A stretch of 53,651 bases of DNA from Oscillospiraceae bacterium (GTDB lineage Bacteria; Bacillota; Clostridia; UBA1381). Numbering within the stretch: the stretch's first letter is position 1; the number at the start of each line of letters is the position of its first letter. The notes under the pieces were generated by a model. The model worked only from the letters and a program-made list of their open reading frames with translations. It was not told where the DNA came from and did no database searches. Shown here piece after piece: positions 31,001 to 48,064 of this stretch. A program made the position numbers and the translations under genes. The stretch spans positions 1 through 53,651 of the forward strand of contig JAFLUC010000005.1 in assembly GCA_022509005.1 (NCBI GenBank), read 5' to 3'.

Positions 31001-33596
31001 GTCGGTAGATGGTTACTCGGCAAAATACGACAGAACAGATCGTTCTAATTCGCAGTCAGTTACCATCACGAACACATCGGATGACATGCTTGTGGATAAG
31101 GTATGGAAGGATGCGGACGGAAATCTGATAGATGTAACAGACAAGGAAATCGAGATTGAGATCTACTACGATAAAAATCAACAACCGGTGACATACAGAA
31201 CTTTTAGCTCAGGTCCGTTAAATTCTGTTGGAAAAATGATGTTCAACAGTCCGTTTGGTATAAGCACGATGAGCGCTCCTTCAAAATCGGATCTTAAGGT
31301 TTATGCATTAGGCGATTCGATTACAGCTGGTTATGGGGCGTGGAATAATTCTTATCCTGACCAATTAAAGGAGATGTTAATAAAAGACGGATACACAAAT
31401 GCAGAGGTAACCAATTCTGGTGTATCAGGAGAAAAAATAGAGGAAATAGAGAAGAGGGTTCCGGAGAAGCTGGATTATGATATTACAACGATTATTGCGG
31501 GAACAAATAATCTGCTGAATACAAATGAAACAATAGCTGAAATGAGAGACCGCATGGTATCCCTGATCAACAATGTGTTCAAATCAGGCGATGATGATCA
31601 TGTTGTATTCGTAGGCAGTGTGCCGAGGATGACTGAGCTTAGCTGGCCTTGGAGAAAAGGCTATAGCACCGATCCTGCATATGGAAATAAATTCGGTACC
31701 GAAGAAGCTTTGCAGGATGCATGGGATAGCCTTGTCACCGACTACAACACGATGCTGTATAATCTTGTTTGTGAATATCAAGATAATGGTGACTATAAAG
31801 GCAGAATTTACTATTTAGATACCTATTCCGCTGTTGGCGATAAATTAGATGATGGCGTTCATCCGACTGCGCAGGGCTATATGAATATTGCTAATAAGTT
31901 CAAATCTGCAATAGACAGCTACTTCGACAAGACAATCGAAAATGACCCATCTCCTGACGAGGCCGGCAACGGTGACAATACCGGCGGCAATGAGGGTGAC
32001 AATACCGGTGGCGGAAACACCGGCGGCGATGGCGACAATACCGGTGGCGGAAACACCGGCGGCGGTGACAACACCGGCGGCGATGGCGACAATACCGGTG
32101 GCGGTAACACCGGCGGAGGTACAACAGGCGGTGTAACGGCGAAGGGATACCCTGCTGACTTCTTCAACGAGGATGGCGACATCAATCGTGATAAATACAC
32201 GACGTACTCCATAAACGGTCAGAGCAGCATTAAGATCAAGTCCACAGACGAAAATGTGACTGTGGGTGAAGATGGAATATGGCACTTCCAGTTCAGTGGT
32301 CTCCCTAAATATGACACAGACGGAAATGAAATGATCTACTACGTAGTGGAAAAGTCCATCGATGGCTATACAACGTCGTATGATAGAGACGCGGAAACCG
32401 GAAAGATTACCATCACTAACCAAAAAGAGCCGGAGAGCGGCATAGATATCGAAAAGATATGGAAGGAGAAGGACGGCACGGAAGCGTCCGGAAACGCTGA
32501 GCCGACATCGGCGGACTCGATTACGGTTACACTGACTCGAACGAGAACAGCGAAAGCAACACCGGAACCGACCCCAACGCCGGAAGTAACCCCGACACCG
32601 GGTACAGAAGAGACACCGACAGCAACTCCGACAGCGTCACCGACGCCAACACCAACACCAACACCAACGCCAACACCAACACCAACGCCAACACCAACAC
32701 CAACACCAACACCGGGCACGGATCCGGATGTTGTACCTGATAATCATGACGGTAACTTTATGGTATTCAATATTGGTGATACGCAACCAACCAATATAGC
32801 CGTAGTACTTTATGGTGAGTATAGCAGCACGCCACCATCGTTTAGTTTCGAGGTTTCTCACGATGGTTGGGGCTGGGGTGGTTGGCTTGCTAAATTTGGT
32901 TCATACACAAATAACGGTTCGGCCGTGTGGGAAGATAGTGCATGGGTTGTAAAATTAGACTCTGTAATAGACATATCATCCTTAAGCAGTTACGCAAGTA
33001 TTGATATAGTGTGCTATGCGACTAATGATGGTGGTGCCCATGTTAAAGATGTTCGCTTCTATTATGGCGACACATCCACGCAGAGCATAGCATCCACCAA
33101 TGCACAGATGCTTCCGAACATACCGTCAATGTACGGAACCGCAGATGTCAGCGACGCAGCAGCTCCAATTGATGCTGCGGGAAATCCTGATGTAGAGGAA
33201 TTGACAATCACAATCTCTCGTGATGACGATAAGGACGGCAAGTGGACCACGATCAGTGACGAGGATAGACAGAAGCTCAAAGAGTTCTGCTTGTTGGATG
33301 ACGATAAGTATGAGTACAGCTATACCATTAAAGAGGTCTCATCACTTGAAGACTATGAAGCGTCGTATTTCATAGACGGTGAGCCAATAGGCGATGGAGG
33401 ATTTAAGCTTAACAGCAATTCCAAGGTCACGGTAACGGTTGTAAACACCAAGACCACGGATACCGAATATCCTGATGTCGATCTCCCCAATACTGGCGGT
33501 ATTGGATTCCCGTTTGTGGCTGCTGGCGCGGCTATTGCGGGATTGGCATTGGCTATGTCACGGAAAAAGCGTAAGCGTTACAGCAGTGGCAAGTAA
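25053..33596 (+). CDS. Giant LPXTG-anchored Cna_B-repeat adhesin with embedded SGNH hydrolase domain
   Basis: A 2,847-residue wall-anchored surface protein. A long signal peptide ends near residue 46 (ALSLMITLAVPFAVTKEVTA). Residues ~55-225 look like an adhesive beta-sandwich. Several ~115-residue beta domains follow to ~800 (GKAVIDWEITIK, QEDIINWTVTVK, NSKITWNIKA). Cna_B-like domains lie at about 806-935, 1648-1780, 1780-1890, 1892-2010 and from 2011. The domain from 2011 is broken by an SGNH hydrolase: Ser2089 in GDSIT, GTNN at 2150-2153, Asp2267 and His2270 in DGVHP. A Gly/Asn linker follows, and the domain resumes near 2404. The last is broken by a Pro/Thr stalk and a beta-sandwich at ~2560-2680. 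The sorting signal LPNTG is at 2811-2815, then a hydrophobic helix and a KKRKR tail. Cna_B domains usually form isopeptide bonds. Probably adhesion plus ester hydrolysis. Confidence 0.92.
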   Translation: MRRHNSVLKDFMYNHNIHKRYIAFLTALSLMITLAVPFAVTKEVTAADDPSTPWFDEALEDKPDGAHGLTKDEITGVDVSVSGNASAEYDEENNRWVIQTEDDQVSATFNLSYTIDNDSISLDQPYLYYEIPEGIEIPKAIFGQTAAVTDPNFNGIAGYVSINEDGLLVIRFTDEYIEAKLSDPGKSDGTVTFWGTIFRDDTASGDRDIEIGDTDIKFEFPDNNFTVTKTGKAEEDSSNGKAVIDWEITIKNQYVGDDDNNLNGFWLEDPRFKNAVGGTAGIEVTPSGLGEFKTNPDGSVYYQFYDNLGAAPDKVTFKFKEEVDYKDTGNTVSNTATLYDEKDVKVDDDKKSVTLEKTVIKKGGKVEYTEAGQEDIINWTVTVKRPYGLSLKGYYVEDEAFKHLTKEDIKLDPNIDFTLDPDTGRITFNGDADEVTITYKTNVKGQDDGLDRGGFDEEKSKGRIKNKSKLLTPKKDVIEESEGYVDYQKKYHIDSKTGTYDRVNSKITWNIKASAEGNLTLDNYELTDAAFADESFSPKITITFKDGHQATVEAATFPATIECPYDDTTATITKDGDTLKIAGDVKSIDITYATAVSDEQKNSGELIYNEVTDKDGDGVTSDGVDVKNRHSTKKKYLRSNTVTDEKNGIWYFDPEGGDLTRTMYWQIDMVSDTGFKDYTLTDNLTDKPAYADHYINKDSIVVTAYTDNTSEYSGNGEKLKPGTDYTIEWTPNESNPTGFVIHFNESVDNANFHYVKVTYNSTFTIHVDQIPEDAYDENGQIKINFKNKANDSEADHEYVIQDKTHVAKTKLTLKKVWNDGGNTTKRKDITYRLQRRLVPGGKWETIYWDDAANEGKGDWVVDPTNKHTDTLTADDNEIDGSDDIWTKVIENLPKDTEKHDSLYYYRVLEVSVDGYTTVYEDDIDTTGVTGGDFTITNNLERGLEKSIIGKNGKISDGATINLNDLEKWTDADGVECYIIRYHIDVATYDGQRYTLTDKIPEGFTLIHKPDLGWGEESDHYPLYCQKGTLTPMYYRELDAQDFQNGNYHYDEDNRIVYFGLYYEVTYIEYEIKIPVKELEEKVADSKKGFAVENYVSDESGTSSSVKVTITGTPQATTPPAEAGTIKKSVTTANDSENSGGFLATNSEISYSIYVNKDGKKLSNADEYDIVDDLNFGEFTLMVEDPNGNDYVGNDGTRYRAEHYTAAQAKEMLEAGLLELTVEEVIGTDADGKEITAPVSNYSYVFDDTPMTYETSTVTYTFSNNHDWDAYGAKAGDVVTFTVTGEPGYTIGPSWYGGLDIMCDGIVFETLTGRTFDKDGNLEFTATIPEGITEGHIQIYDNQEITGISGTAVRTTAIEASGARLIVTVPDEKYLKITYRYNITCEGGILTDNSMLTVSNKVSMDTGTTSASDQTDEGSFRASGAIGTITNSSYPKVVKYNVGNTNEKLSGSEFYVARWETDADGQNGKWVFAVISEEPKFSSDKTDSEGHPIDGYYDLDFKNKDYSTTGEDIPQSLLDAEKTGTNATLSFGEDDYKYDTNKVNMESKYLYKFIEIKAPDNYEAWDEQVSGIAVTNETKYSNLKDLLAAYLKSPDSFKNSAYHNLLSNFVYVHYYRFGTDEVSGPQDALKKMETIPLGGTIGIPNDKLIKISAQKTWDGSLSDVEVTFKLYWSYTKSSSGIPADAKEAKAADLGLSALENPKTVSDNGKAVWENLPNGKDDKPIYYYVKETSYKVNGVTYTLQSDGTYKDADGNEGIYSPTYTGNGANKDTTIKVTNSAGLLVYKVWKYSDGSIMDEKDWPVKQIKFKLYGKKDGKEEQIKNPDSKDGMFILAAKDWECSINASLLAGYTSFRVEEDKDEVKLYGYTISYTYNVNGKTGAITITNKNTKPTSVDVSVEKKWIDSDSSERPKSITLDLYQTTVYQNAVDRSTTVDDNTKLIKTVTLPGEEGTVIDPETGSWSWTYENQPYEDSNSNRYYYYFVERSVDGYSAKYDRTDRSNSQSVTITNTSDDMLVDKVWKDADGNLIDVTDKEIEIEIYYDKNQQPVTYRTFSSGPLNSVGKMMFNSPFGISTMSAPSKSDLKVYALGDSITAGYGAWNNSYPDQLKEMLIKDGYTNAEVTNSGVSGEKIEEIEKRVPEKLDYDITTIIAGTNNLLNTNETIAEMRDRMVSLINNVFKSGDDDHVVFVGSVPRMTELSWPWRKGYSTDPAYGNKFGTEEALQDAWDSLVTDYNTMLYNLVCEYQDNGDYKGRIYYLDTYSAVGDKLDDGVHPTAQGYMNIANKFKSAIDSYFDKTIENDPSPDEAGNGDNTGGNEGDNTGGGNTGGDGDNTGGGNTGGGDNTGGDGDNTGGGNTGGGTTGGVTAKGYPADFFNEDGDINRDKYTTYSINGQSSIKIKSTDENVTVGEDGIWHFQFSGLPKYDTDGNEMIYYVVEKSIDGYTTSYDRDAETGKITITNQKEPESGIDIEKIWKEKDGTEASGNAEPTSADSITVTLTRTRTAKATPEPTPTPEVTPTPGTEETPTATPTASPTPTPTPTPTPTPTPTPTPTPTPTPGTDPDVVPDNHDGNFMVFNIGDTQPTNIAVVLYGEYSSTPPSFSFEVSHDGWGWGGWLAKFGSYTNNGSAVWEDSAWVVKLDSVIDISSLSSYASIDIVCYATNDGGAHVKDVRFYYGDTSTQSIASTNAQMLPNIPSMYGTADVSDAAAPIDAAGNPDVEELTITISRDDDKDGKWTTISDEDRQKLKEFCLLDDDKYEYSYTIKEVSSLEDYEASYFIDGEPIGDGGFKLNSNSKVTVTVVNTKTTDTEYPDVDLPNTGGIGFPFVAAGAAIAGLALAMSRKKRKRYSSGK
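31964..32130 (+). repeat. Tandem repeat coding a Gly/Asn-rich linker
   Basis: Units such as GGTGGCGGAAACACCGGCGG and GGCGATGGCGACAATACCGG alternate, encoding GGGNTGGDGDNTGG-type linkers after the SGNH domain. Unit length varies in multiples of three, so changes in copy number would keep the frame. Confidence 0.85.
32559..32720 (+). repeat. Pro/Thr-coding repeat (PTPT stalk)
   Basis: Repeats of CCAACACCAACG and close variants encode a run of alternating Pro and Thr, preceded by looser PT-rich sequence. In surface proteins such runs make an extended, often glycosylated stalk. The six-base periodicity is prone to in-frame slippage. Confidence 0.88.
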
Positions 33597-36098: not shown

Positions 36099-36830
36099 AT
36101 GATAAGCGTATTTATGTATTTAGAAAACAGGACTGATCATGAGGTCTTACGGGCATATTTTATCAAATATTTTCGGAATGTGAAACGTACCTATAAAATA
36201 ACTTCATGTATAAAATACAGTGATGCCGCGGCTTATCTGGGAAAATCCTGTGCAAATGATGATATTTTTATTTTTGATTTCAGCAATTTTGAAAAGGGCG
36301 CTGCTCTTGCAAAGCAATTTTACAGTAAAAACCCCCTTGGAACATGGGTTTTTATCGGCGGAGACGTAAGTTCTCTGCTCAGGGTTTTGCCGCTTAGACC
36401 ATCCGCGTACATAGGAAAAACAGAAAATCCCGAGTCAGTTAATAGTATTATCAGTGTTCTTCACCGCCAATGTGAAAGAAAACAGAAAAAAACAAGATTT
36501 ACATTTAAGTATGATGGAGATTGGATGCAGATTCCGTACGATAATATAAATTACTTTGAAAGCAGCGCAAAAAAGGTTATATTACATATGGCAAAGAGCG
36601 ATACAAAGTATTATTTCACCGAAAAGTTAGATAATATATCCGATATTATGCCGGACTTTTTCAACCGATGCCATCAGAGCTATCTGGTCAATATGAATAT
36701 GATTAAGCAGCTTGATTCCAAGAGTCATGCTTTTGTTATGATTAATAATGACGAGGTCTGGATAAGCCGCCGTTTATATACAGAGTCAAAGAATAAATAT
36801 GAGGCATTCATGAGAGATAAAAACAACTGA
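36099..36830 (+). CDS. LytTR transcription factor with pseudo-receiver domain
   Basis: A 243-residue regulator. Residues ~1-125 look like a receiver fold that has kept an aspartate at the end of strand 3 (IFIFDFSNF) and a lysine-like residue at strand 5 (AYIGKTENPE) but lacks the acidic pair after strand 1 (ISVFMYLEN). Phosphorylation is therefore doubtful. Residues ~140-240 are a LytTR DNA-binding domain: QIPYDNINYFESSAKKVILH, FFNRCHQSYLVNMNMIKQLD, then EVWISRRLYTESKNKY. ATG 36099 is preferred to a TTG at 36078, though both have weak ribosome sites. The gene leads the Hsp70/dynamin block by 29 bases, so it is probably its regulator, perhaps autoregulatory. Confidence 0.85.
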   Translation: MISVFMYLENRTDHEVLRAYFIKYFRNVKRTYKITSCIKYSDAAAYLGKSCANDDIFIFDFSNFEKGAALAKQFYSKNPLGTWVFIGGDVSSLLRVLPLRPSAYIGKTENPESVNSIISVLHRQCERKQKKTRFTFKYDGDWMQIPYDNINYFESSAKKVILHMAKSDTKYYFTEKLDNISDIMPDFFNRCHQSYLVNMNMIKQLDSKSHAFVMINNDEVWISRRLYTESKNKYEAFMRDKNN

Positions 36831-36859
36831 TTTATTAACACAGATCGGAGGATAAATAA

Positions 36860-38635
36860 ATGATAGTCGGAATAGATATAGGAACGAGCTATTCATGCGC
36901 CGGCAGAGTAAACGGTGAGGGTAAGGTTGAGCCGGTTGAGCTCAGTACGGCCATCAGCATGTACGGCAGTAAATATTCACTGCCGTCTGCGGTATTTGTA
37001 GATGATGGCGGAAATGTGCAGGTAGGACAGGCTGCAATAAACAGCCGCGGTATAAAACCTCAGAATTTTATTATGGAGTTCAAGCGTTTGCTGGGTCAGA
37101 AAACTCCCGTTTATTTAGGCGAAAAGGAGTTTATGCCGGAGGATCTTTATACCGAACTGTTCCGACATATAAAAAAGCAGACGGAAAGAATCGGCGGCGA
37201 GCCGATTGAAAAGGCGTATGTGACATATCCGGCGTCTTTTCAGGAAACAAAAAAGAAAAAAATAGTATCTGCGGCAAAAAGGGCAGGGCTGTTTAATGTG
37301 GAGCTGGTGGATGAGCCGACATCCGCGGCTATGTGCTACTGTGCGACAGGTGATTTACAGGACGGGCAGACAGTGCTTATCTATGACTTCGGCGGCGGAA
37401 CATTTGATGTATCGCTGGTAAAGTATGAGAATAACAGTTTCACTTTGCCCACACACCCGTTAGGTTTAGAGCGCTGCGGCGGAATTGATGTAGACAGAGC
37501 AATTTATAACAATATGACCGCTGCTGTAAACAATGCAGCTCCGGAATTTCTTGAGAAAATAAGCGGACTGCCACGCAAGCGGTTTGAAAGCCAGCTTGCT
37601 GAAAAAGCAGTGAAAGCAAAGCATCATCTGACGCAATACGGAGAATTCAGTGATGTAATATCTACAGGTCCCTTTGATGACGGCATCCCGTATACACTCA
37701 GCCGTGAAAAGCTTGAGAGTATGATAGCAGGAATAGTAGGTAATACCATAACGGTATGCCGTGATATTCTAAGTCGTGCCGGTCTTAAGGTCCATGAGCT
37801 TGCAGGAATACTTATGGTCGGCGGAACCAGCCGCATTCCGCTCGTTCGCCGTATGACGGAACTGTTCGCGGGAGATGTGCCTGTAATATACAGTATTGAT
37901 CCGGAGCTTGCGGTAGCGCAGGGTGCGGTTTTATATGAGGAATATAAGAAAGAGCATAATGCCGGGGAGATACATAATAAAGACACAGAACATATTGATA
38001 ATGAAGAAAAAATTAATGCAGCTGCGGAGCTGCTGAAAAGGACAGCGGAGCAGGGGAATGCGGGTGCGCAATGCGAATTGGGCTATTGGTATAACACCGG
38101 AACAGAGGTATCCGAAGATAAAACAGAGGCTGTGAGATGGTACCGGAAAGCAGCGGAGCAGGGTCATGCTATAGCTCAATTCAATCTGGGCTTTTGCTGC
38201 TTTAACGGATATGGTGTGAAAGAGGATAAAGGCGAGGCTGTGAGATGGTATAAAGCGTCGGCCGAACAAGGAAATGCGGATGCGCAATGTAATCTGGGTA
38301 TTTGTTATGCTAATGGGATGGGCGCACCTGAAGATAAAACAGAGGCTGTAAGATGGTATCGGAAAGCAGCGGAACAAGGTCACGCTATGGCGCAATACAA
38401 TCTGGGTGTTTGCTACGAAGACGGAATAGGAGTACACACGGATAAAACAGAGGCTGTGAGATGGTATCAGGCAGCTGCGGAACAAGGTAATGCCACAGCG
38501 CAAAACTATCTTGGTATTTGCTATGAATACGGAATAGGGATACATGAAGATAAAAGAGAAGCTTTAAAATGGTATGGCAAGGCTGCACAGCAGGGGGATG
38601 AGGATGCCCGGAAAAACCTTTTACGTTTGAGATAA
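36860..38635 (+). CDS. Hsp70-type ATPase fused to Sel1 repeats
   Basis: A 591-residue protein. Residues 1-365 are a complete Hsp70 nucleotide-binding domain: phosphate loop VGIDIGTSYSCAG, TYPASFQETKKKKI, VDEPTSAAM, second phosphate loop LIYDFGGGTFDVSLV and adenosine loop GILMVGGTSRIPLV. The beta substrate-binding domain and lid of DnaK are missing. After a charged linker (~366-390), five 36-residue Sel1 repeats run to the C terminus, with the pattern AEAVRWYRKAAEQGxAxAQxNLGxCY. Sel1 repeats bind other proteins, so they may select the client or partner. It would bind ATP in the cytosol. A GrpE-like gene at 42617 could be the exchange factor; no J-protein is seen. A GGAGG site precedes the ATG. 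Confidence 0.92.
   Translation: MIVGIDIGTSYSCAGRVNGEGKVEPVELSTAISMYGSKYSLPSAVFVDDGGNVQVGQAAINSRGIKPQNFIMEFKRLLGQKTPVYLGEKEFMPEDLYTELFRHIKKQTERIGGEPIEKAYVTYPASFQETKKKKIVSAAKRAGLFNVELVDEPTSAAMCYCATGDLQDGQTVLIYDFGGGTFDVSLVKYENNSFTLPTHPLGLERCGGIDVDRAIYNNMTAAVNNAAPEFLEKISGLPRKRFESQLAEKAVKAKHHLTQYGEFSDVISTGPFDDGIPYTLSREKLESMIAGIVGNTITVCRDILSRAGLKVHELAGILMVGGTSRIPLVRRMTELFAGDVPVIYSIDPELAVAQGAVLYEEYKKEHNAGEIHNKDTEHIDNEEKINAAAELLKRTAEQGNAGAQCELGYWYNTGTEVSEDKTEAVRWYRKAAEQGHAIAQFNLGFCCFNGYGVKEDKGEAVRWYKASAEQGNADAQCNLGICYANGMGAPEDKTEAVRWYRKAAEQGHAMAQYNLGVCYEDGIGVHTDKTEAVRWYQAAAEQGNATAQNYLGICYEYGIGIHEDKREALKWYGKAAQQGDEDARKNLLRLR
38044..38623 (+). repeat. 108-bp tandem repeat coding Sel1 units
   Basis: The string AGGCTGTGAGATGGTA recurs with a period of 108 bases (near 38127, 38235, 38343, 38451 and, more diverged, 38559), giving five 36-residue units. 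The near identity of units at DNA level suggests recent unit duplication or exchange. Confidence 0.85.
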
Positions 38636-38697
38636 ATGTTCCCAATGATATGTTTTAGTCCGAATTTACCCCAAAAAGCTCCGAATTTGCCAAAATC

Positions 38698-38726
38698 ATG
38701 ACAAAATCAAAAAATGATGTTAAAAT
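38698..38726 (+). promoter_or_regulatory. Promoter for the C39-like gene
   Basis: ATGACA (38698-38703), a 17-base spacer and TAAAAT (38721-38726) preceded by TG. Transcription from near 38733 excludes an upstream in-frame ATG at 38714. It gives the second half of the Hsp70/dynamin block its own promoter, although no terminator separates the halves. Confidence 0.65.
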
Positions 38727-38770
38727 GGGAACATCAAAAAACACAAAACAAAAACAAGGGGGAAACAATT

Positions 38771-39976
38771 ATGTTTGACAATTTATTAGATAATCTGATT
38801 GATTATGTAGAGGGCTTTTTAGGTGATGATGACGAAAACAATACGGATGATGATTTTAAAGAGGAAGAAGATTTTATATCAGACACCGGCCATGGCTCTG
38901 ACTCTGACGATGACGGATTTTTATTCGAGGAGTCCGTTGATATTGACGGCGATGGGATTATAGACGGCGTGACGACTTATGAGGACATCGATGGTGATGG
39001 AGTTGCAGATATTGCCACTACATATCTGGATACAGACGGTGATGGAATGATTGATTCAGCAACCTCATATCAGGACACAGATGGTGACGGAATTATTGAT
39101 ACTGTTTCCGTGAGCGAATATCTGGATACCGATGACGATGGTATTATGGATTCATTTGTGACGGACTCATATTATGATATTGATGGAGACGGTACTGTTG
39201 ATATACATGAAACGGAGATTTTGTCAGATGATTATCATGCCGTAATTACAGAGGCAGACATGGACAACGACGGTGAGGCGGATTATATTGTAGTCCAGGA
39301 AGATCTGGATGGAGACGGGATCGTTGACAATTCTGAGGTGATCCCGACCGCGACAGATTATCCTTATGATATAGATGACATAACAGATAATGTTGGGAAT
39401 GCCCCTGCTTATGAACAGTTTGATCCTGATAACTGTGACCTTGATGATATAATCGGCGACCCGGGTGCAGCGATGGACTCATGGCATGTCCAGGAGACTA
39501 GTTCCAGTTGCGCAGTAGCTTCACAGGAATTCATTCTTGAACAGCTGACCGGCTATGAGTTCGATGAGGCAGATCTCAGAGACTTTGCTGAGACAAACGG
39601 CTGGTATGATCCGGATGGCGGCACCTCTATGAGAGATGTAGGTAATATACTTGAGGCTGCGGGACTCGAGGTTGAGCGCAGCACCGGAAATTCTATTACT
39701 GATATTGAGAACTGTCTTGAAAACGGCGGTCAGATTATAGTAGGTGTTGACGCATATGAGCTTTGGGATGGTGAAAGCAACGACTTTTACTTGCCGGGAG
39801 ACGGCGCAAATCATGCGATCCAGGTAATCGGCGTTGATCACAGTGACCCGTCAGAGCCGATGGTGATCATTAACGATTCCGGCACGGCAAACGGCGGCGG
39901 AGCGATGGTATCCCTGGATGTGTTTATGGACGCGTGGGAGGACAGCGGCTATTTCATGGTAGAAGCATATGCTTAA
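38771..39976 (+). CDS. C39-like cysteine peptidase with acidic calcium-type repeats
   Basis: A 401-residue very acidic protein. Residues ~55-190 contain at least seven DxDGDG(x)xD loops (for example DIDGDGIIDG, DTDGDGMIDS), which in EF-hand, dockerin or thrombospondin-3 proteins bind calcium. Residues ~235-400 look like a papain-fold C39_2-type peptidase: Cys247 in SSSCAVASQEFIL, His348 in NHAIQVIGVD and Asn368/Asp369 in VIINDSG. No signal peptide or membrane helix is visible, so either it acts in the cytosol or its export is not Sec-dependent. Start ATG 38771 has AAGGGGG nine bases upstream and fits the promoter. Calcium-type repeats on an apparently internal peptidase are odd. Substrate unknown. 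Confidence 0.8.
   Translation: MFDNLLDNLIDYVEGFLGDDDENNTDDDFKEEEDFISDTGHGSDSDDDGFLFEESVDIDGDGIIDGVTTYEDIDGDGVADIATTYLDTDGDGMIDSATSYQDTDGDGIIDTVSVSEYLDTDDDGIMDSFVTDSYYDIDGDGTVDIHETEILSDDYHAVITEADMDNDGEADYIVVQEDLDGDGIVDNSEVIPTATDYPYDIDDITDNVGNAPAYEQFDPDNCDLDDIIGDPGAAMDSWHVQETSSSCAVASQEFILEQLTGYEFDEADLRDFAETNGWYDPDGGTSMRDVGNILEAAGLEVERSTGNSITDIENCLENGGQIIVGVDAYELWDGESNDFYLPGDGANHAIQVIGVDHSDPSEPMVIINDSGTANGGGAMVSLDVFMDAWEDSGYFMVEAYA
38936..39330 (+). repeat. Degenerate repeat coding DxDGDG loops
   Basis: Units like GATATCGATGGTGATGGAG and GATACAGACGGTGATGGAAT recur every ~42-60 bases and encode the acidic loops of the C39-like protein. Confidence 0.75.
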
Positions 39977-40003
39977 TATTTATTTGTGAAAGGATTAATT
40001 GTT

Positions 40004-40555
40004 ATGGAAAACAAAGCATTTGAAAATATTTCAATTAAAAAAATCATAAAGGAGTTCAATAGCGGAGAATTTCGCCGAAGTTCCATTCCTCTGGAGGTTG
40101 TGTCAGGCTGGCCGTGTCTTAGCAGATTAGGAAAAACTCTTTGTCTGACAATTCCGTATTTTTCACGCAAGGCCGTCGACAAAAAAGCTGCGCTATATCC
40201 GATTTATTGTTCCGTAACCATTCCTTTGGGCAATCCGGAAAAAATCGTAGATTACACGCTTTATCCTATTCAGAAGGAGTGGAAGGACGTAGATTATAAG
40301 AAGCCTGTGGGATATTTTAAGCATGAGGCGTTAAATGATGTAGCCACAAAGGGCGAATATACGGCTCTTCGTGACGAGCTTTACGGTTACATAGATGAAA
40401 TGGCGAAGTCGATAATAAACGGTAAGCCATTTGAGCAGGCAGAGGCCGCATCAAAGCTTTTCTCAAAGCTGATGGAGCCGGGCTTATACCCGTATTATCT
40501 CAGAATTAACAAAAAGTTTTATTCATTTTTCTGTGAGAACAAAGAGGAACAATAA
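40004..40555 (+). CDS. Protein of unknown function in the Hsp70/dynamin block
   Basis: I do not recognise this 183-residue protein. It has no signal peptide or membrane span. The N-terminal 20 residues are charged, and a mixed middle holds SGWPCLSRLGKTLCLTIPYF, then YPIYCSVTIPLGNPEKIVDY. The C-terminal ~70 residues are helical (ELYGYIDEMAKSIINGKPFE). The strand pattern in the middle suggests a compact alpha/beta domain. ATG 40004 is chosen because GAAAGGA lies 8-10 bases upstream. Its stop overlaps the next start (TAATG), so it is made together with the first dynamin-like GTPase and may bind it. This is inference from position only. Confidence 0.75.
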   Translation: MENKAFENISIKKIIKEFNSGEFRRSSIPLEVVSGWPCLSRLGKTLCLTIPYFSRKAVDKKAALYPIYCSVTIPLGNPEKIVDYTLYPIQKEWKDVDYKKPVGYFKHEALNDVATKGEYTALRDELYGYIDEMAKSIINGKPFEQAEAASKLFSKLMEPGLYPYYLRINKKFYSFFCENKEEQ

Positions 40556-42540
40556 TGGAAAATACATTCTTCCGGCTTAAAAATGACGCGCGTAAATTAA
40601 TGCTTGAGAGCGGAAAACTTGCCGAGGCACTCAAGTATGATACTTCCAAAGAGAGGATAGACGATATAATTAAGGAATTTGATAAAAAGGACATGATGGT
40701 TGTTGCTGTCGGAGAGGCGAGACGCGGTAAGTCGTCATTGCTCAATGCGCTCTTAAATGAGACGGAAACGATTTTTCCTGTAGATCTCAATGTGTGCACC
40801 AATGTTGTGACAATCGTGCGGTATAGCGAGACCGAGCAAATCAGCGCCTTAATTAATGACCCATCGGCACCGGACGGCTCGCGTATTGAGAGGATTACCA
40901 GACAGCAGATTTCTGAATATGTTTCCGAGCAGGGCAATCCCAACAACTATAAGGATGTGCAGTGCCTTGATGTGGCAATCCCGAATGAGGCATTGAAAGA
41001 CGGTGCAGTCTTTGTGGATACTCCCGGTGTGGGCAGTCTTAATCCTATCCATGCTGAGGTTACGTATTCATTCCTGCCAAATGCCGACCTGATTATTTTT
41101 GTCACGGATTCACTCTCGGGTATGACAGAAACAGAGCTGAAATTCCTTGAACGCGGCTACAAATCATGTCCCAATATCGTTTTTGCCCTCACAAAGAAGG
41201 ATCTGAATGTCGATTATCAGGAAATAGCAAATGATAACAAGGCAAAGATAAAGTCTAAGATATCCATGGAAGAGGAGGACATAAAAATTCTGCCTGTTTC
41301 CAGTATGGCAAAGCTAAGATACCTTTCCAAAGGAAATAAGAGCATGTATAAAAACAGCGGCTTTATAGAATTTGAGAAAACCATATGGGATACTATAGCA
41401 AAAACAAGGGCTAAAAGCGTTATACTTCCGTTCATAGTCGAAACAGAGCAGGAACTGAATAAAATATCAAATAATATAGTAGCTCAGCATAAGCTGCTCA
41501 GCTCTGATAAAGAAAACACCGGTAAGCTTATCGAGAAGCTGCAAAAGGAGATCGACAAGCTTCAGCAGTTTGATGATGAAAGCGCAGAATGGCGGACGCG
41601 ACTGAACCTGAGTTATATGGATATTTCTAACGACGCGACGGACAAAATTCAAAAGATCGGCAATCAGACAAAAAAGATCTATATGGACGCATCAAATCAG
41701 CTGGGAGTAAAAATTTGCAAGGCACAGAATTATACACAGGTTCTTCAGATGATAAACCAATATCTCAGCGAATGCACGATCAGCTTGCGTGATGATATTT
41801 TATATGCGTTTGCCGAGCTTATTGAACGCACAAACATGAGTCTTGGTCTTGATATTGATATTGACAAGAAATTTGTGGACAGGATTCAGTTTGTTTCGGA
41901 AGATCCGGAGATCAGGTTCAGGAAGAAAACCGTAAGCGAACAGGTTATATCCAGGGGTAGAACTATCAGCCTGAACACAGGAGGCATTACAACTATCACT
42001 TCAATAATCGGTGGAATTGCCGGATTTATTTTTGGAGGAGGCCCGGTGGGAATTACAGCAGGAACGAATCTGGGCGCTGTGATAGGAGCAGTTATCGGAG
42101 CCGGAAATGCGGCAACGGTGCTTATCAGCCGGCATGATATGACAGATGTGTCGGCAGTCAATACCGCTTTTAATCAGATGATATCTTCCCAGACAACAAG
42201 TATGACAAAAAATGTCAACAGGGCTCTCGCCGAACTCAAAGAATCGTTAATTTCTGATTTTGCGAAGAAAATCAGGATGCGTAAAACAGAAACGCAGCAG
42301 AATATCAACCGCAGCAGAGAAAATATAAACCTTAAGAAAAATGAGATTCCACAAAAGCGGGCGGCGCTCAAGGAACAGAATGACCGTATTAACGCGCAGC
42401 TCAATGCTATAATTAAAATGGAAAAAGCAATTGAAACCTTCAGCCCTGCACCGGTAAAACAAATCCCGGTAATACCTGCTCCACGGGCGGAGGAGGAAGA
42501 AAAAAAAGATAATGATCCCATAGATTATGGATTTATATGA
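40555..42540 (+). CDS. Dynamin-like GTPase 1 (membrane-associated)
   Basis: A 661-residue dynamin-superfamily GTPase. G1 is GEARRGKSS at 53-61, followed by a G2-type region with conserved Thr (CTNVVTIV). G3 is DTPGVG from 155, and G4 is TKKD at 213-216. Long helical segments follow (LIEKLQKEIDKLQQF and beyond), as in the stalk of bacterial dynamin-like proteins. A Gly/Ile-rich hydrophobic stretch at ~472-525 (GGIAGFIFGGGPVGITAG) corresponds in position to the membrane paddle of BDLP. The C-terminal ~100 residues are a coiled coil with an acidic tail. It probably binds and remodels membrane in a GTP-dependent way, likely with the second GTPase at 43321. It shares a TAATG junction with the gene before. 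Confidence 0.88.
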   Translation: MENTFFRLKNDARKLMLESGKLAEALKYDTSKERIDDIIKEFDKKDMMVVAVGEARRGKSSLLNALLNETETIFPVDLNVCTNVVTIVRYSETEQISALINDPSAPDGSRIERITRQQISEYVSEQGNPNNYKDVQCLDVAIPNEALKDGAVFVDTPGVGSLNPIHAEVTYSFLPNADLIIFVTDSLSGMTETELKFLERGYKSCPNIVFALTKKDLNVDYQEIANDNKAKIKSKISMEEEDIKILPVSSMAKLRYLSKGNKSMYKNSGFIEFEKTIWDTIAKTRAKSVILPFIVETEQELNKISNNIVAQHKLLSSDKENTGKLIEKLQKEIDKLQQFDDESAEWRTRLNLSYMDISNDATDKIQKIGNQTKKIYMDASNQLGVKICKAQNYTQVLQMINQYLSECTISLRDDILYAFAELIERTNMSLGLDIDIDKKFVDRIQFVSEDPEIRFRKKTVSEQVISRGRTISLNTGGITTITSIIGGIAGFIFGGGPVGITAGTNLGAVIGAVIGAGNAATVLISRHDMTDVSAVNTAFNQMISSQTTSMTKNVNRALAELKESLISDFAKKIRMRKTETQQNINRSRENINLKKNEIPQKRAALKEQNDRINAQLNAIIKMEKAIETFSPAPVKQIPVIPAPRAEEEEKKDNDPIDYGFI

Positions 42541-42616
42541 GTGTGCGGAGGTTTATCAATAAGACGGAGGGCACATAGCCGGCCGAAAGTTTAGATTAGT
42601 GAAGGGATATAACACA

Positions 42617-43306
42617 ATGAAAAAAACAGATTCCAAATATAAAAAAATGGGCATATTCCGGGATAATTTCGTCAAGCTGATGTCTCTTTGCGGAACAGAA
42701 GACGAAAAGGAGGAGATCGCTCTGCCGCCGAAGCGTGGTTGGCTCATGGAAAGACTTTTTCCGGATAAGGGATTTTACAGCTTTCTTGACCAGCTCAACG
42801 AACAGACAATAAAGGCTATTGACGTAATGAAGGAGAAAAATATTGATCTCTGGAACAGCAGTCAGAATGAGGAGGAGCTTGCAAGACTGCAGGATGAACT
42901 GGAAGCTTTGCAAAGAGATTATAAGACAGAGGCGATCATAAGCCCGGAGTCTGAAAAAAATCATATGCAAAAAAAGAATGATACGTTGGTTGAAAGTCTG
43001 ATTGAGCTTCGTGATGACCTATATGCCCGCAGAGAACTAATAAGAATGGATAATCCCGATAATACTGATGCTTTGAAGCTTATAGAATTTGAACTCAAAG
43101 CTACAAGGCGCGTTATGGAAAAGGCGGGAATAACAGTTATGGAGGACAGCGGCGTATTCAACGGCAGCAGGCAGACAGTTGCCAATACAATAGAAACAGA
43201 CGATCCGTCTCTTAACAACCATATAGAATCGGTATTCAGACCGGGCTATATGGCTGATGGCGAAGTGCTGCGCGGACAGGAAGTCACGGTTTACGTTCTG
43301 AAATAA
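42617..43306 (+). CDS. GrpE-like nucleotide exchange factor
   Basis: A 229-residue protein. The C-terminal half resembles GrpE: a helix LIELRDDLYARRELIRMDNP at ~127-150, then KLIEFELKATRRVMEKAGIT. The beta end NHIESVFRPGYMADGEVLRG at ~203-222 matches the GrpE signature in which an RPGY-x-x-x-G-x-VLR strand ends the protein. The N-terminal ~115 residues are unrelated to canonical GrpE and may bind a partner. GrpE releases ADP from Hsp70, so its presence close to an Hsp70 ATPase is meaningful. A housekeeping GrpE should lie beside dnaK and dnaJ elsewhere. ATG 42617 is chosen because AAGGGA precedes it by nine bases. Confidence 0.75.
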   Translation: MKKTDSKYKKMGIFRDNFVKLMSLCGTEDEKEEIALPPKRGWLMERLFPDKGFYSFLDQLNEQTIKAIDVMKEKNIDLWNSSQNEEELARLQDELEALQRDYKTEAIISPESEKNHMQKKNDTLVESLIELRDDLYARRELIRMDNPDNTDALKLIEFELKATRRVMEKAGITVMEDSGVFNGSRQTVANTIETDDPSLNNHIESVFRPGYMADGEVLRGQEVTVYVLK

Positions 43307-43320
43307 AGGAGAAAGAGGAT

Positions 43321-44874
43321 ATGTCTTTAAAGTCAGATGTATATAGGTTGCTCAATGACACGCAGCTGATTTGCGCCGATATTCCTGAGGCATACACATT
43401 ATACAGCGAAATTGAGAAAATGAAGGAGCGCCTTAACCAGCCTTTGCGCGCTGCGATCGTAGGAATTATGAAGGCGGGAAAGTCCACCTTTATGAATGCT
43501 CTTATGGGAAAAAATATTGTGGGTGTGGGTACGCTTGAGACCACATATACTGTCAGTTGGTTTAAATATGCCGATGAACCGAGTCTTACAATCTATTTCA
43601 GAAACGGTGAAGAACGCTGTGCTCCCTTTGAGGAACTGGAAAAATGGTCGGTCAGGGAATCAGGCAATCCCGAGATAGATAATGTAAAATATCTGGTAAT
43701 AAATTATCCCAGCGATATTTTGAAAAAGATCGAGTTTATCGACACCCCCGGACTTAATTCTGTCTATGGCACAGACGCGCAGAATACTCTTGACTTTCTT
43801 GCGATAAGAAGCTCAGAGGAAACCGTGGCTGAGGCGTCTATGGCTGACGCGGTAATATATGCCTTTAATCGGTCTTTGGCGGGGGAGGATGCCCGTGTTC
43901 TGCAATCGTTCCATGCAGGGGATTTTTCAAATCATTCGCCTCTTAACTCGATAGGTATTCTCACGAAGGTGGACATGACCGGTGCGATTTATGACTGGCC
44001 CGATGGTTCTCCTGTAAAAGGAGCTGAGGTTATTGTCAATGCCAGTATGGCAAATCCGATGATTAAAAAGATATTGTACGCGATATTTCCTGTTTGCTCA
44101 GTAGCGGTTGAAGGATGTTCGGTATTGACTGAAGAGGACTGGGATGTGCTCGGGAATATTTCGCATACCGATCCGGAAATGCTTATGGATCTTTTATGGG
44201 ATGCGACCGAATTTTCTGTGAGTGAGAATGAGGAGTTTATGGTACTCGGATCTCCGGCCATCAGAAGGCGTCTCATAGACGTGCTGGGCCAGTATGGGAT
44301 TTTCGAGCTTGCCAGACAGCTCCGTGAAGGCAGGAGTCCTGATGAAGCGCGGCAAATACTTACTGATAAATGCGGAATAACAGCTGTGAAAGACGTTATT
44401 CTCAGCCATTTCGGCAACAGAACCTTTATAATAAAGGTAGGATATATATTCAATCATCTTCGCGCTTTGGTTGAACGGTTTGAAAAAGATCCCGTCACCG
44501 GATTTGCTCTTAAGAATATCTGTTATGAGCTTAAAAATAACATTGACGATATATTGTCAAATCAGCAGAGAATGCAGGAACTGAAAGTCGTACAGATGTA
44601 TTATAACGAGCAGCTCGTCTTTAACAGCGATATTGAAAAGGAAGATTTTCTTCATATAACCGGCGAATACGGACAGAGTGTAGAGGATAGGCTCGGAGTT
44701 GACGGAACATGTTCAATAAGGGAGTTGAAAAAGATTGCCGGAAAGAAAATGGCACAATGGCGGTATAATGCCAATAGTTTTATGGGCAATCATTATTATA
44801 TAGAGGCCGCTAATATAATTACAAGATCGTATGAGCATATATTTTATGCGCTCAACGCGCTTGACGAGGTTTAA
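43321..44874 (+). CDS. Dynamin-like GTPase 2
   Basis: A 517-residue dynamin-family GTPase. G1 is GIMKAGKST at 48-56, G2 TTYTV near 78, G3 DTPGLNS from 141 and G4 TKVD at 215-218. About 200 helical residues follow, but no hydrophobic paddle-like stretch, unlike the 661-residue partner. This suggests a pair in which one GTPase carries the membrane anchor and the other assembles with it, as in known tandem bacterial dynamin-like proteins. It ends the block; a strong terminator starts 32 bases later. An AAAGGAG site lies upstream of the ATG. Confidence 0.88.
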   Translation: MSLKSDVYRLLNDTQLICADIPEAYTLYSEIEKMKERLNQPLRAAIVGIMKAGKSTFMNALMGKNIVGVGTLETTYTVSWFKYADEPSLTIYFRNGEERCAPFEELEKWSVRESGNPEIDNVKYLVINYPSDILKKIEFIDTPGLNSVYGTDAQNTLDFLAIRSSEETVAEASMADAVIYAFNRSLAGEDARVLQSFHAGDFSNHSPLNSIGILTKVDMTGAIYDWPDGSPVKGAEVIVNASMANPMIKKILYAIFPVCSVAVEGCSVLTEEDWDVLGNISHTDPEMLMDLLWDATEFSVSENEEFMVLGSPAIRRRLIDVLGQYGIFELARQLREGRSPDEARQILTDKCGITAVKDVILSHFGNRTFIIKVGYIFNHLRALVERFEKDPVTGFALKNICYELKNNIDDILSNQQRMQELKVVQMYYNEQLVFNSDIEKEDFLHITGEYGQSVEDRLGVDGTCSIRELKKIAGKKMAQWRYNANSFMGNHYYIEAANIITRSYEHIFYALNALDEV

Positions 44875-44906: not shown

Positions 44907-44945
44907 AAAACAGCGGTGATCACATACTGAACCCGCTGTTTTATT
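44907..44945 (+). terminator. Terminator ending the Hsp70/dynamin block
   Basis: AAAACAGCGG at 44907-44916 pairs with CCGCTGTTTT at 44933-44942, followed by ATT. A 10-base stem with a T-rich end. Confidence 0.85.
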
Positions 44946-45030: not shown

Positions 45031-45138
45031 ATGAAGATATTAAAGAGCATTTTTACATTTATTATATATCTCGTAATGTTCATCCTTGTGTGTATATTCT
45101 TCACAGGGAACGGCGCGTTTATTTATGAGGGATTTTGA
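45031..45138 (+). CDS. Small membrane protein, 35 residues
   Basis: An ATG at 45031 reads a positively charged start (MKILKSIF) and one hydrophobic helix of ~22 residues (TFIIYLVMFILVCIFFTG), ending GNGAFIYEGF. The promoter at 44964 and a GAAGGG site upstream support translation. It ends one base before the lipoprotein start, so it may be a translational leader or a small membrane partner of the lipoprotein. No known family recognised. Confidence 0.55.
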   Translation: MKILKSIFTFIIYLVMFILVCIFFTGNGAFIYEGF

Positions 45139-45139
45139 T

Positions 45140-48064
45140 ATGAAAAAAATCATAGCATGTATTGTGGCTGTAGCTGTTGCGGTTGCCTGCGGAGTGCTTT
45201 TTGTTTCGTGTGATAAGAACACAGTTGAGGCGGACGGCTCTGCAAATGTGAGGGCGCTTGCCGCGGGCGATGGAGCAGCGGCTCAGGAAACATATAATCA
45301 GCTTTGCGAGGGATTGATTGCAAATATAGACGTATCGATCGCAAAGACAGTGCAGGAGCTTGATAGGTTTGATATAATATATCTCTCGGACGGTGCAGAG
45401 ATCGAACCATCCGCCGTTGAAAGCTATGTTTATAACGGCGGTACGGTAGTTATTGATAATGACCTTGTAATGGAATTCTCAAACGAATTTCTCGGAGCGG
45501 AGGAGATTATTAATATTGAAGGGTGTCCGGTGGATCTGTCATATCCTGAAACGGACGCGGATTTGCAAGATATAAGCGATATTTTATATAATTATACAAG
45601 TGTTCTTAAGGATTATGAGAATTTTGATAAGTATGCTGAATACAGCTATGGTGTGGGTATCCTGCCTTCAACTGCCGAGACTATTGCCGCGTATAACGAT
45701 ATTGCGATATATACGGTAAATCGGTATGGTTCGGGAAATGTATTCATAACAAACCCGCTGCTGCCAGGCAAATATACCGTTTCCTCACTTAGTGAGCAGG
45801 AAGAGGGGGAACCGCTTGCATATACAACAGTAAGCGCCGGGTCGCTTTTAAGAAGCTATTACGCGGAATATGTTTCAAAGCAAAAATATGGATTTGCGAT
45901 TGAAAGAACATTCGGCTCATTCGGTTCAAGACCGGCGGCATGGGAGTTGCATTATGAGGATATAACGGGAATCCAGAACGATTCGCTTGAGGAGTTTGCA
46001 AAGCAGTGTATGGCAGAGTGGCAGATACCGTCATATACTCTCGCAAGAAACTTCTATACATGGTTCAAGCGCGCTGAAAGTCTGACATATCTCGAATATG
46101 ACGGCACTAAAGCAAAAAATGACGCATATGAGGGCGTGTATTGCAGCGGAACGCATGTAGTAACGAGCGGGAAATGGCTTGAGCTTGATTATTATGATGA
46201 TACGGAGAGCTATTTTGAGGATGACACACAATATACAAAGCGTCTTTATCCGTGTCCGATAGACTGGAATGAGGACGGAACAGTTGATTTTATATGCGGC
46301 AGCGCAGACGGCAGATTCTATTATTTTGAGGGCAGGGGTATGAACGGTAATTTTGAGACCGGTATAGCCACTCTTCTTACTGACCCTGACGGCGAGCCGT
46401 TAAGCTCAGGCGCGTATTCGTCGCCTGTGATATATGATATCGACGGTGACGGCAGAGGCGAGTTGATCTCCGGCGGAGAGGACGGACTGATAAAACAGTA
46501 CAGATCTCTTAAAACAGATGAAAACCCTTCATCTCTTGCTTTTGAGGAAGAGGGAACAATACTTGAGACCGGACTTTCAGACTGTATGATCGATATAGGT
46601 GATCTTAACGGAGACGGAAAGCCGGATCTCGCCGTAGGCTCGCGCATAGGCGAAATGCGTATATATTTCGGGCACAGCAACGAAAGCTATGACCTTGTGT
46701 TTGATGACTATACCATAGTAAACACAGATCAGGCATGGGCATCGCCGTGTATATATAACGGTGAGCTTTACGGCGGTACGCTTGAGGGCTATATAGCTCA
46801 TTATGAGTGGAACGGCGAAAGCTATGACCTTGTGGGCTATATTGAATCAGATACCGTTTCAAGGCGCGGAAACAACAGGGTTTCGATCGGCATGAACAGT
46901 GTGCCGAGATTTGCGGATCTGGATAAAGACGGCAAGGATGAGCTTGTATGCGGAAGCCTTGAATACGGAATGGCATACCCTATAGACAGCCCGTACTTCC
47001 CGGTTGAAGAGGAACTGAAAAAGCAGATAGAATTCTGCAAGAATAACAATATCTATATTGGTGTTCACGGATTTACAAACAAATATGCGTCTCCCGAACA
47101 GGAGAAGGCCGAGCTTCGAATGCATAAGACTGCTTTTGATAAGTATGACATGGCATGGAACGGCAGCGGCGCAAATCAGCATACATGGTTTACAAGTCAG
47201 TATGGTTACGACAAGAGCAATGCTGACGGATATAATCCGTCATATAACGGAACATTCAAGGCACAGCGCGATTCAGGGCTGCTGTGGAACAGCGGCTTCA
47301 CACCGCCGGAAAGCAATCAGGTTCCGCAGAGCAGTGCGGAAAATGCGATCCCGATGCCGATATATATGCCCGATACGGATTTCCTTGCAATGCAGGTTTC
47401 AAATACACCGCATGGCAACGGTAAATATTCATATCTCAGCGTAACATACGGTATGCCTATGCTGTTCTATAATCATTGCGATTATATCTATGATAAGGGT
47501 GAGAGAACGGAACAGAAAAAGGCTATAAATAAGGTATCAAAGCTTGTTGATGACTATGATTATGTGTTTGTAACGGAGGGTCAGATGGCAAAAGCCGTTG
47601 CGGCATCATATAATACCGAGGTAAAAGCGGAAATACGGAACGGTGATATAATCATAAGCGGCGAGGTGAAGGATTTGTCGCGCGATTTGTATGATACCGA
47701 TTTTGCCGACAGCGTGGGCGTGAAAGTCATATTTGCAGACGGCAAAAAGGCTGAGGACTATACTTCCGATGCGGCTGTACAGAAGGTCCGGAATGATGCG
47801 TTTTATGTGACGCTTGATAAGACCGTTACGATAAGCGATAAGAACATAAAAAAGAACATGAGCGTAATGGAGATCAATATACCAGCGAAGGTAAAGGTGA
47901 CAGCCGATACGGCAGAAATTGATTTCAAAGAGGATGGACTCATGTGCGTAAGAGTGGAAGGTAATGCCACTACATCAACGGACGGGTGGACGGTAAGCAG
48001 TAATGACGGCGATACCGTATTCAGAAAGTTCGGAAAAGCTGAAAAACTGAAAATAGTTAGATAA
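45140..48064 (+). CDS. FG-GAP/VCBS-repeat lipoprotein
   Basis: A 974-residue exported protein. The signal segment KKIIACIVAVAVAVACGVLF ends in FVSC, an imperfect lipobox, so lipid attachment at Cys24 is likely. Residues ~25-330 look like an alpha/beta enzyme domain. Residues ~365-610 hold at least four FG-GAP blades: DWNEDGTVDFICGS, DIDGDGRGELISGG, DLNGDGKPDLAVGS, DLDKDGKDELVCGS. This is a calcium-binding beta-propeller. From ~625 the enzyme-like part seems to resume (IYIGVHGFTNKY, MLFYNHCDYIY), in the style of a polysaccharide-deacetylase-type domain, so the propeller may be inserted in it; uncertain. The C-terminal ~130 residues are beta-rich. Start ATG 45140 is the one with a signal peptide. 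Probably acts on or binds envelope glycans. Confidence 0.8.
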   Translation: MKKIIACIVAVAVAVACGVLFVSCDKNTVEADGSANVRALAAGDGAAAQETYNQLCEGLIANIDVSIAKTVQELDRFDIIYLSDGAEIEPSAVESYVYNGGTVVIDNDLVMEFSNEFLGAEEIINIEGCPVDLSYPETDADLQDISDILYNYTSVLKDYENFDKYAEYSYGVGILPSTAETIAAYNDIAIYTVNRYGSGNVFITNPLLPGKYTVSSLSEQEEGEPLAYTTVSAGSLLRSYYAEYVSKQKYGFAIERTFGSFGSRPAAWELHYEDITGIQNDSLEEFAKQCMAEWQIPSYTLARNFYTWFKRAESLTYLEYDGTKAKNDAYEGVYCSGTHVVTSGKWLELDYYDDTESYFEDDTQYTKRLYPCPIDWNEDGTVDFICGSADGRFYYFEGRGMNGNFETGIATLLTDPDGEPLSSGAYSSPVIYDIDGDGRGELISGGEDGLIKQYRSLKTDENPSSLAFEEEGTILETGLSDCMIDIGDLNGDGKPDLAVGSRIGEMRIYFGHSNESYDLVFDDYTIVNTDQAWASPCIYNGELYGGTLEGYIAHYEWNGESYDLVGYIESDTVSRRGNNRVSIGMNSVPRFADLDKDGKDELVCGSLEYGMAYPIDSPYFPVEEELKKQIEFCKNNNIYIGVHGFTNKYASPEQEKAELRMHKTAFDKYDMAWNGSGANQHTWFTSQYGYDKSNADGYNPSYNGTFKAQRDSGLLWNSGFTPPESNQVPQSSAENAIPMPIYMPDTDFLAMQVSNTPHGNGKYSYLSVTYGMPMLFYNHCDYIYDKGERTEQKKAINKVSKLVDDYDYVFVTEGQMAKAVAASYNTEVKAEIRNGDIIISGEVKDLSRDLYDTDFADSVGVKVIFADGKKAEDYTSDAAVQKVRNDAFYVTLDKTVTISDKNIKKNMSVMEINIPAKVKVTADTAEIDFKEDGLMCVRVEGNATTSTDGWTVSSNDGDTVFRKFGKAEKLKIVR

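Follow-up and report, generated by a model that had tools for sequence, protein, structure and literature searches.

We analyzed a window of 53,651 nucleotides from an Oscillospiraceae bacterium (assembly GCA_022509005.1, contig JAFLUC010000005.1, positions 1 to 53,651), in which seven plus-strand genes (36099-44874) form one block with a hairpin terminator after the last gene. In order, the block encodes a LytTR-type regulator, an Hsp70 ATPase domain joined to Sel1 repeats, a C39 peptidase with DxDGDG repeats, a family-less protein (hereafter UNK), a dynamin-like protein (DLP1), a GrpE-like protein and a second dynamin-like protein (DLP2). The features are as follows:

36099-36830, plus strand: LytTR-type regulator, first gene of the block (PF04397, 7.2e-19)
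36860-38635, plus strand: Hsp70 ATPase domain (about residues 1-366) fused to Sel1 repeats (PF00012, 2.1e-52; PF08238)
38771-39976, plus strand: acidic DxDxDG-repeat protein with a C39/papain-like peptidase domain (PF13529, 5.6e-7)
39491-39877, plus strand: predicted catalytic residues of the peptidase, namely Gln 39491-39493 (Q-x5-C), Cys 39509-39511, His 39812-39814 and Asp 39875-39877
40004-40555, plus strand: UNK, 183 aa, family-less partner of the C39 protein (six homologues aligned)
40555-42540, plus strand: DLP1, IniA-type dynamin-like GTPase (PF00350, 5.3e-22; IniA, 6j72)
42617-43306, plus strand: GrpE-like nucleotide exchange factor with an N-terminal extension (PF01025, 3.8e-12)
43321-44874, plus strand: DLP2, second dynamin-like GTPase (PF00350, 1.4e-14)
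44908-44941 (about), plus strand: probable terminator, a hairpin (fold -26.4 kcal/mol, z -4.19) with a T-rich stretch behind it

A sequence-only reading of this window had described seven plus-strand genes running from a LytTR gene to a terminator and encoding an Hsp70 ATPase domain without substrate-binding domain, a probable GrpE-type factor, two dynamin-superfamily GTPases, an acidic C39-like peptidase and an unknown protein overlapping the first GTPase. All of these assignments held, as the open reading frames (ORFs) lie where they had been placed, the Pfam families agree and the hairpin folds stably, even if a consensus terminator scan missed it. Counted from the likely ATG starts, the intergenic gaps are, in gene order, 29, 135, 27, -1 (UNK and DLP1 overlapping by one base), 76 and 14 bases, and purine runs resembling ribosome sites were seen by eye ahead of the gene starts. 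Three of the likely starts lie inside longer ORFs: that of the C39 gene at 38771 (ORF opening at 38714), that of UNK at 40004 (ORF of 189 aa) and that of the GrpE-like gene at 42617 (ORF from 42599). The G+C content of the block (43.0%) falls between those of its left (39.7%) and right (44.0%) flanks, so that composition gives no foreign mark.

The Pfam HSP70 match of the second protein stops at residue 358 and is followed by five Sel1 repeats; neither a linker nor a canonical substrate-binding domain was found in it, and the motifs that we take to be the ATP site of Hsp70 are preserved (alignment A7). Judged from this domain layout, the chaperone of the window is an Hsp70-ATPase/Sel1 protein and not a DnaK. 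The GrpE-like protein matches PF01025 with 46.6 bits against a cut-off of 25.8 (residues 89-231 of the ORF from 42599), and a two-row profile made from it recovers, at 1.1e-6, the E. coli GrpE that was solved together with DnaK (1dkg). Since the source genome carries a separate full-length DnaK and GrpE, adjoining each other on another contig, the Hsp70 and GrpE of the block constitute a second pair. In whole-genome searches, an extra Hsp70 and a second GrpE were both found in two of seven genomes, that of the window and G420 (a metagenome-assembled genome of another family, uncultured Clostridia bacterium isolate 'Lapin-021'), and neither was found in the other five. Across 95 genomes of the order, the GrpE-like protein has matches in one.

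The third protein is acidic and carries, by motif count, nine DxDxDG-type loops ahead of its C39/papain-like peptidase domain; by eye it has no signal peptide, and its hydropathy reaches a maximum of 0.75. The loops are possible Ca2+ sites, as far as the motif indicates. Cys, His and Asp are invariant in all eight rows of the peptidase alignment A1, and the Gln of the Q-x5-C arrangement is present in the 7/7 rows that reach its position, the eighth row beginning past it; these four residues presumably play the catalytic roles that they have in papain-like peptidases. Unlike a bacteriocin-processing C39 exporter, the protein has no ABC transporter domain in Pfam. UNK, in turn, gave nothing above cut-off in Pfam or NCBIfam, its profile reached a best E of 0.15 against PDB sequences, and its AlphaFold2 models (mean pLDDT 52.5 from one sequence, 43.1 from two) are too poor for a fold search. 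Among 391 genomes of the class, the C39 domain was matched in five and UNK strongly in four, all of them within the C39-positive five, and UNK immediately follows C39 in 4/4 genomes with a strong UNK match. UNK thus adjoins C39 in four of the five C39-positive genomes (hypergeometric 5e-9, uncorrected for kinship). In the fifth, G313, the C39 gene is preceded by a LytTR gene and stops about 70 bases short of the contig end. One further UNK match in the class, in G156, is weak and partial (6.3e-4) and was set aside; the C39 hits of G239 and of G420:C16 were discounted for the same reason. A search of 398 genomes of the phylum recovered UNK from the source genome, along with the same weak G156 match. 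G030, a genome of the same family outside the 391, also carries C39 and UNK. UNK is probably an adaptor between the peptidase and the DLPs.

A dynamin-type GTPase domain with G1, G3 and G4 motifs is present in both DLPs (PF00350; alignments A3 and A4), the motifs reading GEARRGKSS, DTPG and TKKD in DLP1 and GIMKAGKST, DTPG and TKVD in DLP2. The sequence-only reading had also pointed to a paddle-like hydrophobic stretch in one of the GTPases. DLP1 does contain a Gly-rich hydrophobic stretch at about residues 479-524, peaking at residue 506 (KD19 1.94); since this peak is modest for a membrane segment, and since DLP2 has a peak of equal height elsewhere (1.92, residue 251) that is not conserved in G420 (1.15), the stretch stands and its role as a paddle is suggestive only. 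Among solved structures, the best relative of DLP1 is IniA (6j72), found at 2.4e-37 with a profile of the window, G420 and Anabaena rows only, ahead of a Nostoc protein at 3.4e-26, and at 2.9e-61 when actinobacterial rows are included. The DLP1 profile (A4) aligns with IniA over 5-600, and the profile without actinobacterial rows (A5) over 6-344 only. The assignment of DLP2 as counterpart of IniC rests on its position and on its clade with actinobacterial partners, and we regard it as provisional. The C terminus of DLP1 is YGFI, after a variable linker, in both the window and G420. Four proteins of the Anabaena block described below (L027 12100-18184), out of 30 ORFs examined, share a C-terminal WF, its Hsp70 and a member of the DO-GTPase family being two of them; our guess is that such C-terminal tails may be read by the Sel1 repeats or by a partner.

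We found the whole arrangement a second time, in G420, where all seven genes occur in identical order and on the same strand: LytTR, three Hsp70-Sel1 genes, C39, UNK, DLP1, GrpE-like and DLP2. Identities to the window are 55% for LytTR, 66-67% for Hsp70, 67% for C39, 64% for UNK, 57% for DLP1, 51% for the GrpE-like protein and 60% for DLP2. Order and strand being kept in another family, the block is not a chance cluster. The notion of coincidental neighbours, an ordinary dynamin pair that happens to lie beside unrelated chaperone and peptidase genes, could draw on the fact that most component families are common and that the full seven-gene set was found in two genomes only. The synteny already contradicts it, and the association is repeated in three phyla (below), which makes coincidence highly improbable. 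A contig scan likewise returned one locus, the G420 contig; its query was a single protein, and an alignment query would have reached further. DLP1 itself was matched in three of 70 genomes of the family, the proteins of the other two genomes lying outside the DLP1 clade. Upstream of the G420 operon (L067 834-5209) are genes that by eye resemble von Willebrand-type and macro-domain genes, and one gene that is Sel1-repeat-like.

A second type of locus was found in G030, G386 and G440, where C39 and UNK are followed by two or three dynamin genes of other clades, in a stretch bounded by a contig edge before C39 in G030 and after the second dynamin in G386. Hsp70 and GrpE therefore travel with the DLP1/DLP2 pair, and C39 and UNK with dynamin sets of at least two kinds. 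This bears on the idea that Hsp70-Sel1 and GrpE have the C39 protein as their client, or fold an unstable DLP2, without any part in coat disassembly. The Hsp70 gene indeed adjoins the C39 gene in both the window and G420, and IniC proved too unstable for study by the authors of the IniA structure (PMC6715688). However, C39 and UNK do without an extra Hsp70 or GrpE in all three genomes of the second type, and both the window and G420 have the GrpE gene between DLP1 and DLP2, as has, with a match below cut-off, Rhodococcus erythropolis R138, so that we consider a pure client role unlikely. In G440 (L023 2057-6183), two Beta-lactamase2-domain proteins are encoded directly upstream of C39; one of them has a weak protein-kinase match (6e-4, below cut-off), and they are possible cell-wall sensors. 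In G030 (L013 426-1589), a gene with a Bacterial toxin 50 (Ntox50) domain lies downstream of the dynamin trio.

Beyond the Bacillota, the DLP pair recurs in Cyanobacteriota and Actinomycetota, and an Hsp70 lies in the same block as the pair in eight of the nine cases whose flanks were read (window, G420, Anabaena, three Rhodococcus, Gordonia and Nocardia). A plasmid of Anabaena sp. 90 has Hsp70 first, then four other genes, a C39 gene coding for two DxDxDG loops, UNK, DLP1 and DLP2. The plasmids of Rhodococcus WAY2 and R138 encode the DLP pair, an Hsp70 in which a hydrophobic stretch is probably a membrane segment, a protein with DxDxDG repeats (8 and 10 loops, respectively) and C39 as a separate gene without loops. 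Repeat and peptidase are thus one protein in the Bacillota loci and Anabaena and separate genes in Rhodococcus, and this fusion in some and separation in others is a sign of joint action. In R. erythropolis R138, a GrpE C-terminal match (1.1e-4, 21.5-22.3 bits, below the cut-off of 25.8) lies between the two dynamin genes, the position of the GrpE-like gene in the window, and the matching protein has an N-terminal hydrophobic segment. In R. pyridinivorans, a 105-aa GrpE above cut-off (39.7 bits) is encoded on the other strand about 7 kb from the pair, adjoining a second Hsp70 and the repeat protein. In Gordonia terrae, the pair is found with an Hsp70, and in Nocardia farcinica (NZ_LN868939.1, L040 8041-15437) it lies 242 bases upstream of dnaK, which is followed on the same strand by grpE and by a dnaJ assigned by eye. 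PF00012 matches occur on 5/5 plasmid records searched whole, every match falling inside the block, and a GrpE match occurs on three of six whole records with the pair, two of them above cut-off. In addition, DLP2 begins 4.4-9.7 kb (start to start) from C39 in 27/28 plasmid records with a C39 match; these records are mostly near-copies from Rhodococcus and Prescottella and stand for few independent events. The DLP2 count comprises the 35 of 54 matching records with at least 55% coverage, the other 19 being dropped, and the lists hold 30 of 39 records for DLP1 and 30 of 258 for Hsp70.

In the dynamin tree, DLP1 and DLP2, represented by nine rows apiece, each form one side of a branch, with supports of 95/94 and 100/100, respectively. 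Within both groups the window and G420 are placed with Anabaena, opposite Nocardia, Nonomuraea and Rhodococcus plus Gordonia in that order, several forks lying below star level. DLP1 and DLP2 seem to have been retained together over evolution, and a pair with GTPase motifs whose clade extends across Anabaena, Rhodococcus, Gordonia, Nocardia and Nonomuraea points to an old Ini-type pair. Ten Hsp70s of the system separate from eight DnaKs with support 100/99 (unrooted, the third G420 copy omitted). The co-inheritance proposed from the window alone is borne out by the seven-gene order in G420, the joint presence of the extra Hsp70 and GrpE in two of seven genomes and the company of Hsp70 and pair in 8/9 cases. 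The wider co-occurrence that it predicted was obtained for Hsp70 with the pair, and not throughout: C39 and UNK also accompany other dynamins without Hsp70 or GrpE, and GrpE gave no match on three of the six records. Dynamins from Aphanizomenonaceae, Lichenicola and G005 fell outside both pair clades and were not counted as relatives. On the Aphanizomenonaceae TIOX110 plasmid (L041 1-13012), the annotation shows a type III-B CRISPR cluster that includes cas1 and cas2, and a lone dynamin gene comes directly after it.

Among the closest described systems is mycobacterial iniBAC, in which the IniA/IniC dynamin pair is joined by IniB and the regulator IniR; it is induced by wall-acting drugs and has a dnaK-like gene at its M. 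smegmatis locus (PMC5760070). IniA carries out GTP-dependent membrane fission, and its authors propose that it preserves plasma-membrane integrity under wall-acting drugs (PMC6715688); a further paper deals with HpoR-iniBAC (PMC13413693). The two systems share adjacent dynamin genes, with DLP1 nearest to IniA among solved structures, whereas a GrpE, a C39 peptidase, a DxDGDG repeat and an equivalent of UNK go unmentioned in the available part of the iniBAC paper (PMC5760070). IniB and IniR are absent from the Pfam and NCBIfam matches of the block, which is led by a LytTR gene, and we do not class it as an iniBAC operon. A cyanobacterial 'chaperone clade' of dynamins, with a DnaK-domain gene downstream, resembles the block in its Hsp70-type neighbour, and a dynamin-Hsp70 link has already been proposed for it; its section names no GrpE, C39, repeat protein, UNK or link to Bacillota or Actinomycetota (PMC5827413). 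A neighbour of Nostoc BDLP1, B2IZD2, is a DLP with a DnaJ-like C terminus and gives a further hint of Hsp70 acting on a dynamin pair, although there the J domain is fused to the DLP whereas the window has a separate Hsp70/GrpE set (PMC6104087). Cj-DLP1/2 and LeoA/LeoBC are also bacterial DLP sets, with more distant GTPases and with Hsp70, GrpE and C39 unmentioned in the available text; the Campylobacter Cj-DLP operon contains an HcpA-like beta-lactamase, and membrane repair has been proposed for it (PMC6104087). CoCoNuT restriction systems contain Hsp70-like domains, and their main text has neither dynamin nor GrpE (PMC11090510). By titles and abstract openings, with supplements, preprints and most subscription papers outside this scope, no paper among those listed places GrpE, C39, the repeat protein and UNK with this pair. 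The novelty first claimed for the block is partly wrong, dynamin-Hsp70 links having been in print before (PMC5827413, PMC5760070); the full module was not among the papers listed.

Phage defence had been suggested at the outset as one possible role. Under such a scheme of defence or programmed death, invasion would be sensed, the peptidase would act as effector or switch, the DLP pair would open or remodel the membrane against the phage, and Hsp70 and GrpE would hold the complex inactive or assemble it. DO-GTPase conflict systems give this precedent: Hsp70 and GrpE are both present in about 14% of the GAP1-N2 DO-GTPase neighbourhoods, chiefly actinobacterial and firmicute ones, some of the Hsp70s lack the peptide-binding domain, and a partner is fused to DnaJ or TPR repeats (PMC7159879). 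The likeness thus extends to GTPases, an Hsp70 with or without peptide-binding domain, GrpE and TPR-type repeats occurring together; the GTPases of the window are instead dynamin-type, the word 'dynamin' is absent from that paper's main text (PMC7159879), and Pfam gave no DO-GTPase or GAP1 match among eight proteins of the window, those of the block included. The patchy distribution (C39 in five of 391 genomes) and the plasmid homes of the relatives also fit defence. PADLOC, run on eight proteins, returned weak single-protein matches only, LeoA to DLP2 (3.4e-7), which leans toward defence, and PDC-M61B to Hsp70-Sel1 (4.6e-5), and recovered no described anti-phage gene set; three pattern scans of viral contigs (64, 6 and 193 stretches) found no relative, which says little on defence. 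The nearest solved relative, IniA, is an envelope-stress protein. We judge the defence scheme somewhat unlikely, yet a serious rival, and the main one, to the repair model below.

As to the surroundings of the block, a 2859-aa protein with Cna_B and GDSL-lipase domains is encoded upstream (25017-33596), and the gene that follows the terminator on the same strand (45086-48064) encodes 992 aa with FG-GAP repeats and with a start that, by eye, looks like that of a lipoprotein.

Overlapping gene sets across three phyla suggest machinery that is driven by a chaperone and dedicated to repair or defence of the cell membrane. Between these roles, we tentatively prefer repair, at a little below an even chance, and read the block as an accessory operon for an envelope-repair machine in which an Ini-type dynamin pair has its own Hsp70/GrpE cycle and works with a papain-like protease. 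Envelope stress is favored because of the relation to IniA, the Beta-lactamase2 neighbours in G440 and the dnaK-operon neighbour in Nocardia. On this model, envelope damage would switch on the operon, which carries its own LytTR gene (kept at the same position in G420), and the DLP pair would assemble on the injured plasma membrane and seal the damaged patch or cut it off. Directed by the Sel1 repeats, which replace the substrate-binding domain, the Hsp70/GrpE cycle would dismantle the GTPase assembly so that it can be used again. The peptidase, under the control of Ca2+ or of its acidic repeats, would trim a DLP or a damaged envelope protein, and UNK would link the peptidase to the dynamins. 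The Hsc70-like uncoating, the Ca2+ triggering and the substrates are what we infer for such a machine.

Several observations weigh against this repair model. Within the Hsp70 tree, the actinobacterial and the clostridial-cyanobacterial system Hsp70s sit on two distinct long branches, so that a single origin is not established and separate recruitment is possible. The block of the window contains no J-domain gene. Its Hsp70, which we only suppose to act on a DLP, and its GrpE could have the peptidase or some other protein as client; Ca2+ binding is read from the motif. The loci of G030, G386 and G440 combine C39 and UNK with other dynamins and no Hsp70 or GrpE; GrpE gave no match on the whole records of Anabaena, WAY2 and Gordonia; and C39 went unmatched in eight of the 35 records that have a long DLP2 match. 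In Nonomuraea gerenzanensis (L028 5627-18946), the pair has no Hsp70 match within the 22 kb read. The genes that flank it, two with caspase domains and one of AAA-LuxR type, suggest a dynamin-caspase arrangement that favors the defence scheme, as do the DO-GTPase conflict systems with Hsp70 and GrpE discussed above and the Anabaena block, which includes a DO-GTPase1 gene (2.7e-15, above cut-off) and, in another gene, a DO-GTPase2 match below cut-off.

Eukaryotic Hsc70 uncoats clathrin, and calpain, a Ca2+-controlled papain-like protease, acts in membrane repair; the likeness of the block to these, which itself has no clathrin or J-domain gene, is one of mechanism only, in the proposed removal of a coat by Hsp70 and in a Ca2+-controlled protease. 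In a bolder form of the repair model, which we think doubtful as a whole, repair would be self-contained: Ca2+ entering through a breach would fill the cytosolic repeats and unlock the calpain-like peptidase, the dynamin pair would seal or excise the damage, and Hsp70-Sel1 and GrpE would strip the coat in the manner of Hsc70, possibly through Sel1 repeats reading the DLP1 tail, with iniBAC as a reduced relative. Because a dynamin pair with its own Hsp70, GrpE, peptidase and small partner recurs in overlapping sets in three phyla, chaperone control of a bacterial dynamin becomes directly testable with a few purified proteins. If such control is real, bacteria would have their own counterpart of coat removal driven by Hsp70, and iniBAC would gain a wider family of fuller relatives.

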